This document shows positions 13,711 through 20,395 of a stretch of DNA of 20,395 bases, one piece after another; the first letter of the stretch is position 1, and each line of letters starts with the position of its first letter. The stretch is from a virus: positions 1-20,395 of IMG/VR virus record IMGVR_UViG_3300024062_000087; one strand, 5' to 3'. The notes under the pieces are model-generated. The model had not been told where the DNA came from, made no database searches, and saw only the letters and a program-made list of their open reading frames with translations. A program made the position numbers and the translations under genes.

Positions 13711-14655
13711 ATGGCTCAACCAAGTAATACTTTTGATTCGTATGATGCTAATGGCATCCGCGAAGACCTTTCTAATGTGATCTACAATGTATCACCAGAA
13801 GAAACCCCACTTCTTAGCTCTATTGCTAAGGTAAGCGCAACTAACACTCGTCATGAGTGGCAGACTGACACCCTTCGTTCAAGTGCCGTTAACGCACACG
13901 TTGAGGGCGATGACACTACCGCAGAAGCTCGCGTTGCAACTACTCGTTTGGGTAACTACACTCAAATCTTGAAGAATGCCGTTGTTACTGCTGGCACTGA
14001 TTCTGGCTTGGATAAAGCTGGCCGTGGCAAAGAAATGTCTTACCAAGTTGTATTGGTAGGCCAAGAGCAGAAGCTCGACACTGAAAAAGCGTTGATGAGC
14101 AACCAAGCTGCTGTAGCTGGTAACTCTACCACTGCTCGTAAAATGGCTGGCTTAGGCGCATGGATCACTACTAACGTGAACAACGTTGGTACTGGTGGTG
14201 CTAACCCTACTGGTGACGGTACTGACGCTCGTACTGACGGTACACAGACTGTGTTCTCTCAGGCCGATTTCGACCTAACCATGCAGGATATCTGGAAGGA
14301 AGGCGGTAAGCCTGACTGTGTTATCCTGTCGAGCTTCAACATGGACAAGGCTCTAGGCTTCACTGGTAACAACAACCAGCGTGCTACTGGTGCTGTTGGT
14401 ACTGTTGATAACTTGCTTAACGTTTATCAGACTCCTTGGGGTACTGTAGACTTCATCCCAGCTCGTGAAAACCGTAGCCGTGATGTGTTCATCATTGAGA
14501 AAGACAAGCTGGCACTTGCTCAGTTGCGCCCAATGAAGAACGAAGCTCTTGCCAAAACTGGCGACAACGAGAAGCGTCAGGTTGTCTCTGAATGTACTCT
14601 AGTAGTGCGTAACGAGAAAGCCTTGGGTAGTATCGTTGACTGTACTACTTCGTAG
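13711..14655 (+). CDS. Major capsid protein, SU10 / DUF5309 type
   Basis: This 314-residue protein begins MAQPSNTFDSYDANGIREDL and continues SNVIYNVSPEETPLLSSIAK. The pattern 't.dsyda.gnredL.n.Iyni.p.eTPf.s.i' is characteristic of the DUF5309 / phage SU10-like major head protein family with an HK97-type fold. Further family-like parts are EWQTDTLRSS, GNYTQILKNAVVTAGT, KDKLALAQLRPMKNEALAKT and ECTLVVRNEKALG near the end. It lies directly after the scaffold with a clear AGGAGAG ribosome binding site, and codon use looks more biased and ordered than in its neighbours, fitting high expression. A strong terminator follows at 14679. No delta domain or protease is fused; the scaffold is separate. 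Confidence 0.9.
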   Translation: MAQPSNTFDSYDANGIREDLSNVIYNVSPEETPLLSSIAKVSATNTRHEWQTDTLRSSAVNAHVEGDDTTAEARVATTRLGNYTQILKNAVVTAGTDSGLDKAGRGKEMSYQVVLVGQEQKLDTEKALMSNQAAVAGNSTTARKMAGLGAWITTNVNNVGTGGANPTGDGTDARTDGTQTVFSQADFDLTMQDIWKEGGKPDCVILSSFNMDKALGFTGNNNQRATGAVGTVDNLLNVYQTPWGTVDFIPARENRSRDVFIIEKDKLALAQLRPMKNEALAKTGDNEKRQVVSECTLVVRNEKALGSIVDCTTS

Positions 14656-14669
14656 TCAAATAGCTAACG

Positions 14670-14678
14670 TGCTATAAT
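14670..14678 (+). promoter_or_regulatory. Extended -10 promoter element
   Basis: TGCTATAAT is a perfect TGnTATAAT extended -10 box directly after the capsid stop codon. No good -35 is visible, which extended -10 promoters do not need. A start point about seven bases downstream would fall near 14685, inside the 5' arm of the following terminator. Confidence 0.45.
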
Positions 14679-14702
14679 AAAGGGGGCTTCGGCCTCCTTT
14701 TT
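14679..14702 (+). terminator. Intrinsic terminator after the capsid gene
   Basis: AAAGGGGGC (14679-14687) pairs with GCCTCCTTT (14692-14700) through nine base pairs, one of them a G-U wobble, capped by a UUCG tetraloop (14688-14691). The T tract at 14698-14702 completes the signal. It ends rightward transcription of the structural operon. Confidence 0.9.
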
Positions 14703-14720
14703 GTTATCTGGAGAAAAGTA

Positions 14721-14897
14721 ATGCCAAAGGTAGAAGTTTTATGCAGCAACATCATGCTTGATGAGATGCGCTATAAAGGCTGGAAGGGTGAAGTAAGCAA
14801 AGAGATTGTTGATATTGTCAATGAGTCTGATGCGGGTTACGGCTCACCACGAATCAAGGTTACACCAAAGAAAAAGGCGGCTAAGAAAAATGGCTAA
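14721..14897 (+). CDS. Small basic-tailed phage protein, function unknown
   Basis: This 58-residue protein begins MPKVEVLCSNIMLDEMRYKG. It has a short strand, a helix with a central WKGEVSKEIVDIVNESDAG stretch, then a basic tail (KVTPKKKAAKKNG). GGAGA at 14710-14714 gives good spacing to the ATG. The stop overlaps the next start by eight bases (ATGGCTAA), arguing for coupled translation. It is the first gene after the capsid terminator. The 'm.dem.ykG....v..ei.d.v...dag' shape resembles small proteins found downstream of capsid genes in other phages, possibly head-associated, but this is only suggestive. Confidence 0.7.
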   Translation: MPKVEVLCSNIMLDEMRYKGWKGEVSKEIVDIVNESDAGYGSPRIKVTPKKKAAKKNG

Positions 14898-15174
14898 GAT
14901 TGCAGAGAAGTGGGTCGAGGACGGTGATCGCATCGTTCAGATCAAGACCCAAGATTGGAACCCGATGTTAGAGCGAGCAGAGATGCTACGCCAGACGGGT
15001 AATGAAGAATTTGGCGAGTCTAAGCTAATCGGCGTTGTTGATAGTGCTTTGCTTGGTGAGTGGCTTAAAGAAGCAGGCATTGGCTGGGATGATCCAGCGC
15101 GAGGTGATGTGATTAAGCGCAAGATGCTGTCGGGCGAGTTTGACAAGTTGAGAGTGTGGCAAGGGACATATTAA
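14890..15174 (+). CDS. Conserved phage protein downstream of capsid, function unknown
   Basis: The protein has 94 residues from the ATG at 14890. An in-frame ATG at 14806 would run through the previous gene and is rejected. The sequence starts MAKIAEKWVEDGDRIVQIKT and later carries AEMLRQTGNEEFGESKLIGV followed by VDSALLGEWLKEAGIGWDDP, then a basic segment (VIKRKMLSGEFDKLRVWQGTY). The 'vg.vp..ll.eWlkeaGv.wdD' pattern is shared by short proteins following capsid genes in many tailed phages, where it might belong to the head or neck, but no function is established. It sits twelve bases before the phosphoesterase gene. Confidence 0.75.
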   Translation: MAKIAEKWVEDGDRIVQIKTQDWNPMLERAEMLRQTGNEEFGESKLIGVVDSALLGEWLKEAGIGWDDPARGDVIKRKMLSGEFDKLRVWQGTY

Positions 15175-18926: not shown

Positions 18927-20267
18927 CTATTTATTTTTCAATGCTGATATTAACGCGCTTTGTGTTGCGTCTTTGCCTTCCAATACAGACATGACGCGCT
19001 CATCCATACAGCCCTTGGCGACAATATGAATAACGCGAACGGGGCGGCCTTGCCCTTGGCGGTGCAACCTTGCGTTGAATTGCTGGTAAAGCTCAAGTGA
19101 CCAGTTGAGACCAAACCACACAGCCAACGCACCGCCCTTTTGTAAGTTCAGCCCGTGGCCCGCACTGGCAGGGTGGGCCAACAACATACCTATTTCGCCG
19201 TTGTTCCATCGCGTGATCGTGTCGGGGTTCTTGTCTAGCACAACGGCTTTAGGGAAACGCTTTGTTAATCGTTCAAGGTCTGTTTTGTAATTGTAGGCTA
19301 CAAGTATAGATTCGCCCGCGTTGTCGTCTACAATGTCTGCTAGTGCGTCTAGTTTGACATTGTGCAACTCGACCCAGTTCTTGTATTCATCCGTATAGAT
19401 TGCACCGTTACACCATTGCAGCAGCTTGTTAGCCAGCACAGCGGCGCTTGTAGCCTCAATTAATTCGTCGCCCATCTCAACGAGCAATTCCTTCTCGAAC
19501 GACTGGTATTGTTTCAAAACGGATACGGGCAACTCGCATTGCTCAACCAAGTCAATACGCTCAGGCAATTCTAAATAATCCTCAGCGGTCATAGACAGGG
19601 TGTAAGGTTTAATTAGGCCGTGTATCTTCGCGTCTGACCCGTCACGGGGCGAGAACGTATAACCGCCGTAACCGCTTTGCTCAAAGAAACGGCTTTTAAA
19701 ACCCGTCACAGTGCGCCCTAGCGCCTGCCCATAATCGACTAAATAGCACTGCGCCCACAAATCCATCAAACCATTCGGCGCTGGTGTACCTGTTAACAAG
19801 GTTATGTATTGGGTGTGGTGTAGCACTTTTTTAAGCGCTTTAAAACGCTGACTCTTTGCGCTTTTAAAACTTGAGGATTCATCAATAACAACATAGTCGA
19901 ATGGCCACTTGTCGCCGTACAGGTCAACCAACCACTTCACGTTCTCGCGGTTGATAACGTGAATGTCTGCGCGTTTATGTAACGCGGCGCGTCTGGCTCG
20001 CTCATTACCAGTGCATAATGACGTGGTGAGGTGTTTTGTGTGCTGCCAGTTCGCCGCCTCCTGAACCCATACGCTATTCGCAACGCGCAACGGGGCGATG
20101 ATTAACACACGGCTAACAGCAAACCCATCAATCAAATCAACAATGGCAGTTAGCGTGGATATTGTTTTGCCCAAACCCATGTCGAGAAACAGTTGGCAGC
20201 GTTTCTTTTCTGTAATAAACCCCACCGCGTTTTCTTGATAGGCGTGTAAATCAGTTCGGGAAAGCAT
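18927..20267 (-). CDS. SNF2-type DEXH/SF2 helicase-like ATPase
   Basis: This 446-residue phage SF2 translocase carries all motifs in order: a Q-motif-like HAYQENAVGF (8-17), Walker A MGLGKT (30-35), Ia IIAPL (56-60), Walker B VIDESSSFKS (128-136, DESS instead of DEAH), III LLTGTPAPN (158-166), V HPASAGHGLNL (365-375) and VI QFNARLHRQGQ (396-406). The C-terminal RecA lobe is intact, so ATP-driven DNA translocation or remodelling is expected, usually in replication or recombination. The start is set at 20267 because GGAGG lies six bases upstream; an in-frame start at 20309 would run through the preceding nuclease gene. It overlaps that gene by 17 bases. Confidence 0.92.
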   Translation of the reverse strand: MLSRTDLHAYQENAVGFITEKKRCQLFLDMGLGKTISTLTAIVDLIDGFAVSRVLIIAPLRVANSVWVQEAANWQHTKHLTTSLCTGNERARRAALHKRADIHVINRENVKWLVDLYGDKWPFDYVVIDESSSFKSAKSQRFKALKKVLHHTQYITLLTGTPAPNGLMDLWAQCYLVDYGQALGRTVTGFKSRFFEQSGYGGYTFSPRDGSDAKIHGLIKPYTLSMTAEDYLELPERIDLVEQCELPVSVLKQYQSFEKELLVEMGDELIEATSAAVLANKLLQWCNGAIYTDEYKNWVELHNVKLDALADIVDDNAGESILVAYNYKTDLERLTKRFPKAVVLDKNPDTITRWNNGEIGMLLAHPASAGHGLNLQKGGALAVWFGLNWSLELYQQFNARLHRQGQGRPVRVIHIVAKGCMDERVMSVLEGKDATQSALISALKNK

Positions 20268-20395
20268 CGACCGCCTCCAGTGAATCAATGACGCGAACGT
20301 CACAACCAAGGTCGCGTCTACGGCTATGGTCTAATTCTTGTTTGAGTGTGGGCTTTTTGTTGGGTGCTTTTAACTCAACAAAGATAATACGCCCA
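20251..20395 (-). CDS. VRR-NUC domain nuclease, C-terminal part (5' truncated)
   Basis: The last 47 residues are visible, running in from the right edge. GRIIFVELKAPNKKPTLKQE carries the E-x-K catalytic strand (VELK) and the downstream Gln of VRR-NUC (PD-(D/E)xK type) nucleases. RDLGCDVRVIDSLEAVDAF is the typical closing strand-helix ('lG..v.vids.eaVda'). Phage VRR-NUC proteins cut branched or flap DNA and often sit directly before an SNF2-type helicase, as here with a 17-base overlap. The metal-binding residues upstream of the ELK strand lie outside the window. Confidence 0.85.
   Translation of the reverse strand, partial: GRIIFVELKAPNKKPTLKQELDHSRRRDLGCDVRVIDSLEAVDAFPN
20274..20278 (-). 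promoter_or_regulatory. Ribosome binding site fixing the helicase start
   Basis: GGAGG on the leftward strand lies six bases before ATG 20267, inside the nuclease gene. It decides the start against the upstream in-frame GTG/ATG options at or near 20309. Confidence 0.75.

Follow-up and report, generated by a model that had tools for sequence, protein, structure and literature searches.

The window, by which is meant the whole stretch of DNA analysed here, is a 20,395-base IMG/VR virus record. Its plus strand holds late genes up to about 17.1 kb, among them those for virion proteins, a portal, a scaffold and a major capsid protein, and the major capsid gene is the last gene upstream of the intrinsic terminator that forms part of the element described below. 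The features of this region are collected in Table 1. A longer listed open reading frame (14806-15174), which contains the 94-aa gene, gave a weak match to phrog_3982, while a Pfam search with the 398-aa exonuclease/phosphoesterase-like protein returned no match. The distance at which the exonuclease-like gene and the endolysin gene lie downstream varies among the relatives in which they were found.

Table 1. Features around the post-capsid element of the window
Feature	Positions	Strand	Basis and remarks
Portal		+	phrog_1216; among the late genes
Scaffold		+	phrog_3927; among the late genes
Major capsid protein gene, SU10 type	13711..14655	+	PF17236, E=2e-85; phrog_1328, E=4e-87
Extended -10 element TGCTATAAT	14670..14678	+	Sequence; position conserved in 21 distinct intergenics, the window's included
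Intrinsic terminator: 9-bp stem, TTCG loop, T-rich tail	14679..14705	+	Sequence, folding; hairpin in nearly all relatives
Putative transcription start, 6-8 nt after the -10, within the 5' arm	14684..14686	+	Predicted from the usual -10-to-start spacing
Ribosome-binding-like CTGGAG region for the 58-aa ORF	14707..14712	+	Read from sequence
58-aa ORF, first downstream gene	14721..14897	+	Present in part of the clade
94-aa gene	14890..15174	+	In nearly all relatives with enough flank, a homologue follows the terminator directly
Exonuclease/phosphoesterase-like protein, 398 aa	15187..16383	+	phrog_704, E=9e-87
Endolysin-like protein, 134 aa	16356..16760	+	phrog_465, E=4e-35; PF13539 just below its cut-off
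Helicase-like gene	18927-20309	-	

In the window, 14 bases separate the capsid stop codon from TGCTATAAT, which has a TGn directly before a -10 hexamer with A at position 2 and T at position 6 and matches at six of six positions. Its last base (14678) abuts the first base of a stem (14679), and the hairpin, AAAGGGGGC-TTCG-GCCTCCTTT, spans 14679-14700 and is followed by the tail TTGTT, so that a G+C-rich stem, a short loop and a T tract directly after it, the features of an intrinsic terminator, are all present. An extended -10 element adjoining a terminator hairpin, as proposed by an earlier, sequence-only reading of this DNA, was thus confirmed at 14670-14678 and 14679-14700. When the window was folded, the complete hairpin had an energy of -13.4 kcal/mol (z about -2.8); an RNA beginning at 14685, 7 nt after the -10, was left with three of the nine stem pairs and -4.2 kcal/mol, and one beginning at 14686 with 2 bp and -0.5 kcal/mol.

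Reading of the sequence revealed no -35 box for TGCTATAAT, with one to three matches of six at spacings of 16-18, and a sigma-70 scan of the window called no site there. A -35 box is optional for extended -10 promoters. Comparison of the element with known RNA families gave only sub-threshold matches, the best of which, to the terminator part of a Brucella sRNA, reached 17.3 bits where the gathering score is 382. At positions 14660-14677 the window has a small inverted repeat, ATAGC-TAACGT-GCTAT, which overlaps the -10; similar repeats are present in some relatives, the left arms not being kept.

Relatives were gathered by a scan with the capsid protein (80 loci), an alignment-based scan that yielded more, and a scan with the exonuclease (nine). 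Sufficient downstream sequence was available at 155 of the 163 loci with a capsid match, and these provided 93 distinct post-capsid intergenics, nearly all of which have a hairpin behind the capsid gene. The same overlap, which the earlier reading had proposed to look for in relatives, was recovered in 21 of the 93, where the motif [TC]GnTA[TC]A[AG]T lies at the stem. Among these 21 the gap between motif and stem is 0 nt in 17, 1 nt in three and -3 in one, and the distance from motif to stop codon drifts between 12 and 29 nt. Position +7 falls within the 5' arm in every case, and the mean hairpin energy of -13.7 kcal/mol declines to -5.3, -2.9 and -1.3 for starts at +6, +7 and +8, respectively. 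By sequence and folding alone, a start in the 5' arm with loss of the hairpin is found in 21 of 21, and the relatives and the folding together support the earlier proposal that transcription would begin inside the 5' arm and that the promoter's own RNA would escape the terminator.

The 9-mer by itself is no evidence, and is unremarkable in the window, where TGnTATAAT occurs three times against 0.96 expected and 9 of 100 shuffles reach three. The case rises above chance because the motif abuts a strong terminator and is conserved there in relatives. Shuffling of the bases between stop codon and stem gave an expectation of 0.003 motifs at the stem per 21 intergenics, and TA[TC]A[AG]T was present at the stem of 14 of 51 strict post-capsid terminators versus 1 of 56 other terminators from the same loci. 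Five columns of the motif (G, T, A, A, T) are invariant in all 21 intergenics, and the remainder appear to vary as those of an extended -10 may: the n position takes all four bases (T in 13, A in five, G in two, C in one), hexamer position 3 is C in 15 and T in six, position 5 is A in 20 and G in one, and the first motif base is T in 17 and C in four, with G next in 21 of 21. At fourfold sites of the capsid gene, identity between the window and 12 relatives was 0.31-0.55, the random expectation being 0.35-0.45. With its columns invariant while the synonymous sites of the capsid gene are saturated, the motif looks selected. Apparent TTGACA-like hexamers, matching at four of six positions and at a spacing of 16-18, were seen by eye in the CG-type members L011, L017, L088 and L166, where it seems as if the -35 had compensated for the lost TG.

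The nearest named phage is Octadecabacter DB virus 2 (DB2), with 65% capsid identity. A tree was reconstructed from 58 capsid proteins, namely those of the first capsid scan together with DB2 and PaP3, the capsids from the alignment-based and exonuclease scans being left out. The sequence-only reading had held that loss of the motif from relatives that keep the terminator would count against a promoter at this place, and such loss is seen in part: in the window's 31-row clade, of which 30 rows could be scored, 10 rows keep the hairpin and lack the motif, as do 26 of the 27 rows outside the clade, which keep a hairpin-bearing intergenic, and the motif is retained in 20 of the 30 clade rows and in one row outside (L027). 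Loci L106 and L141/L146, from later scans, are likewise without it. The fewest state changes on the capsid tree are six, and the number of independent origins of the motif is small, since the 21 intergenics are related. Because DB2 and the more distant PaP3 both have a post-capsid hairpin without the motif, the pattern is read most simply as an old hairpin in the family to which a -10 was later added in the window's clade.

Nine of the 10 motif-less clade rows have TTATGCAC before the stem instead, with capsids in different sub-branches, and this distribution suggests that the stretch has been exchanged between phages. Since 10 of the 30 scored clade rows have the hairpin but no motif, the motif is replaceable, and the pattern of loss is more in keeping with a promoter that can be dispensed with than with an essential one. 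A near-invariant GTTATGCAC(A)AAGGGGG was observed in place of the -10 before the post-capsid hairpin at loci L018, L020-L022, L024-L026, L029/L030, L033-L035 and L057-L059, whose capsids also lie in different sub-branches; this sequence may represent a different type of promoter or an allele that was swapped in. In DB2 (L082:22465), a terminator-like hairpin that lies within gp28, about 90 bases ahead of the lysozyme gene, is adjoined by TGTTATAAT, the post-capsid hairpin of the same phage having no -10.

Similar composites were sought in IMG/VR with the pattern TATAAT, 3 nt, GGGG-(4-10)-CCCC and T5. Controls were the scrambled hexamer TAATAT in the same place, TATAAT at 13 nt, a distance that would put the start ahead of the hairpin, and the composite itself in bacterial and archaeal genomes. 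These searches returned at least 120 (TATAAT), at least 120 (TAATAT), 118 (13 nt) and 114 (cellular) stretches, of which 100, 94, 81 and 111 were counted after removal of repeats of the same 40 bases and of sites lying no more than 40 bases from the end of a contig; the scrambled-hexamer set of 94 becomes 97 when all loci are searched. Only the make-up of the matches was compared between TATAAT and TAATAT, not their totals. Among the matches listed, TG preceded the hexamer in 59 of 100 abutting sites versus 6/94 scrambled, 9/81 at 13 nt and 11/111 cellular; a -35 with five or six matches was present in 22/100 versus 2/94, 3/81 and 4/111; and either feature was present in 69/100 versus 8/94, 11/81 and 14/111. 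Counting one site per upstream-similarity cluster, again among the matches listed, gave TG or -35 in 44/72 versus 5/73, 10/74 and 14/100, the 72 clusters comprising 44 with and 28 without features, clustered apart. In viruses, predicted promoter features appear when the hexamer abuts the stem. The IMG/VR sample consists of the matches listed and is rich in cyanophages (three of three viral matches tested by similarity were cyanophage-like, one of them being in phage S-RIM32), and so describes a pattern, not a frequency. A stricter fixed pattern gave 0 matches for the test and scrambled hexamers alike.

Among 654 distinct terminators (513 viral and 141 cellular) that had not been chosen for the motif, extended -10 elements peaked at the stem start in viral contigs and showed no such peak in cellular ones. 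A strict extended -10 ending no more than 4 nt from the start of the stem was found at 32 sites among the 513 viral terminators versus 0 of the 141 cellular ones, at 18 sites among the 414 viral terminators that remain without the capsid loci, and at eight sites among the 278 viral terminators from contigs picked by the controls only. The viral background of strict extended -10 elements was about 1 per 1000 positions, versus 5-7 at the stem. No excess was seen of nearby downstream start codons that have a Shine-Dalgarno match (14/55 TG sites versus 32/91, 26/78 and 36/108 in the controls). The strand of the longest downstream frame was co-directional, convergent or ambiguous in 52/4/4 promoter-like sites versus 70/12/3, 58/14/1 and 63/31/8 in the controls, and in 25/0/2 of the 27 abutting sites that have neither TG nor a -35, making it suggestive at most as an independent sign of promoter function. 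At L188, L193, L204, L245 and other loci, many cyanophage-like composites follow a gene ending in AAGTAC..CTTCTGA, which looks as though the composite were the tail of a single gene family.

A comparable arrangement is found at the E. coli promoter E of phage T7 (V01146), where the last base of TGATATACT is 36828 and the first of a 10-bp hairpin is 36830. As predicted for the window, the start falls within the 5' arm; it is annotated at 36836, 8 nt past the -10, and RNA from that point folds at -2.9 kcal/mol versus -12.6 for the full hairpin. The hairpin region is L643:36820-36853, and the next gene is the lysis gene 18.5. It differs from the window in that the T tail, CTTTATGG, is short and weak and the hairpin is not annotated as a terminator, and T7 is unrelated to the window's phage. 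In cyanophage S-RIM32 (KU594606.1), the 32 nt that separate psbD from an nrdC-like gene contain TGTGATATAAT with a hairpin and T tract directly adjoining it, although this phage belongs to another family with other genes, and the element is not annotated in its record. A -10 lies at the stem in two of eight strict terminators over 44 kb of S-RIM32, and one of 15 strict terminators in 50 kb of T4 was flagged with a -10-like hexamer near the stem.

The terminator Tphi of T7, in the T7 record, and its counterpart in LUZ100 (PMC10134795) are similar to that of the window in being strong, directly after the capsid gene and followed by further late genes, but the polymerase there is phage-encoded, and no promoter is annotated at Tphi, the next being about 3 kb on. 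Among five T4-like phages, a terminator after gene 23 was predicted in all six genomes considered, and the available part of that report describes no promoter overlapping it (PMC1524935). A paper on C. glutamicum transcripts concerns, in its available portion, 3' ends inside stems (PMC3890552). No prior description of a phage promoter overlapping a terminator was found in the literature searched, in which older T4/T7 work and subscription journals were thinly covered.

The A+T-rich stretch before the stem could belong to the terminator alone, pairing with the U tract or easing release, with the likeness to a -10 due to chance or descent. Upstream A tracts are usual at terminators, and -10 hexamers without TG are somewhat denser near stems, those of cellular genomes included. 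We nevertheless consider this explanation unlikely, as the motif, with its TG, free n and TAYAAT, goes beyond plain A/T; other terminators of the same loci are without it (1/56); and, among the matches listed, the scrambled A/T hexamer abutting hairpins is preceded by TG in just 6/94, and a -35 accompanies TATAAT in 22/100 versus 2/94 for the scrambled form. It is very unlikely, in our view, that a phage regulator or anti-terminator has its binding site or RNA element in the conserved upstream bases: the groups of L008, L044 and L055 keep the motif with left arms that are, by eye, short or missing, even though several members, the window included (ATAGC-GCTAT), have inverted repeats ahead of the motif, and one such repeat, TAACAC-TTTT-GTGTTA, ends in the motif.

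A further alternative accepts the promoter but has it start early in the arm, at +5 or less, so that it would be mostly attenuated and give a short RNA or a mere leak downstream. With a +5 start, the window would be left with -6.5 kcal/mol and its relatives with -0.9 to -16.4, mostly -6 to -9, and a start at +5 or +6 might leave a hairpin that still terminates partly. Usual starts lie 6-8 nt after the -10, and the annotated start of T7 promoter E is at 8 nt, both of which count against this reading and make it quite unlikely.

A T7-type polymerase (PF00940) was not found in the window, in complete DB2 or in the records of 16 relatives, which together make 18 records, mostly fragments; the positive control, T7, was detected at E=1e-109. 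A promoter for a phage polymerase, which was also considered, is unsupported by this search of 18, mostly fragmentary, records for T7-type enzymes, and the host sigma-70 polymerase is the simplest candidate for the reader of the element.

The 35 bases at 14670-14705 are likely to form a composite punctuation element that the host sigma-70 RNA polymerase reads, and that probably closes one message and allows the next to start. RNA of the capsid operon would carry both hairpin arms and stop in the T tract. Polymerase on the extended -10 (TGnTATAAT, with no -35 needed) would start 6-8 bases on, inside the 5' arm, and the resulting RNA, being without most of that arm, would form no terminator and would read into the downstream late genes. 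The element would in this way insulate the downstream block from strong capsid transcription and feed it at a rate of its own, at a cost in DNA of almost none. What was observed is how the element is built, that it keeps its place among relatives, that its hairpin loses energy when the RNA begins within the arm, that no T7-type polymerase was found in the 18 records, and that the element recurs in other phages; its promoter activity, its start point, the efficiency of its terminator and its purpose we infer. The separate control of lysis proposed in the sequence-only reading is unsupported as stated, the first downstream genes being the 58-aa ORF and the 94-aa gene, with the endolysin 1.7 kb downstream of the element, behind other late genes. 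Because the 94-aa gene has a homologue directly downstream in nearly all loci with enough flank, and the exonuclease and endolysin follow at varying distance, that statement is too narrow, and the element would instead supply a late block that contains the lysis genes.

The inferred start point and the T tract lie about 20 bp apart, the T tract being downstream. E. coli polymerase often remains on the DNA after RNA release and restarts nearby, according to the available parts of three reports (PMC6978380, PMC6978322, PMC11347151), one of which, for a single in vitro template, puts restart at 37% of terminations, or 55% when sigma-70 was added (PMC6978380). The likeness to the present element is that a terminated polymerase restarts at a nearby promoter; the difference is that the units used there, in the available text, were separate, with no overlapping promoter (PMC6978380, PMC11347151). 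A bolder reading, improbable in our estimation, is that phages which use the host polymerase carry a class of composites whose terminator holds the start of the next operon, and that these act as a termination-reinitiation relay, in which polymerase released at the T tract would pass straight to the overlapping -10 and capsid output would set the downstream rate.

A composite punctuation element of this kind offers a compact genome a way to close one message and open the next within about 35 bases while the promoter avoids silencing itself. Should the wider pattern hold, predictors that treat promoter and terminator apart would misread operon borders in many phages, cyanophages included. The element is also a natural test bed for whether a terminated polymerase restarts at an overlapping promoter and, if the relay were true, the output of the capsid operon would set the rate of the downstream block.
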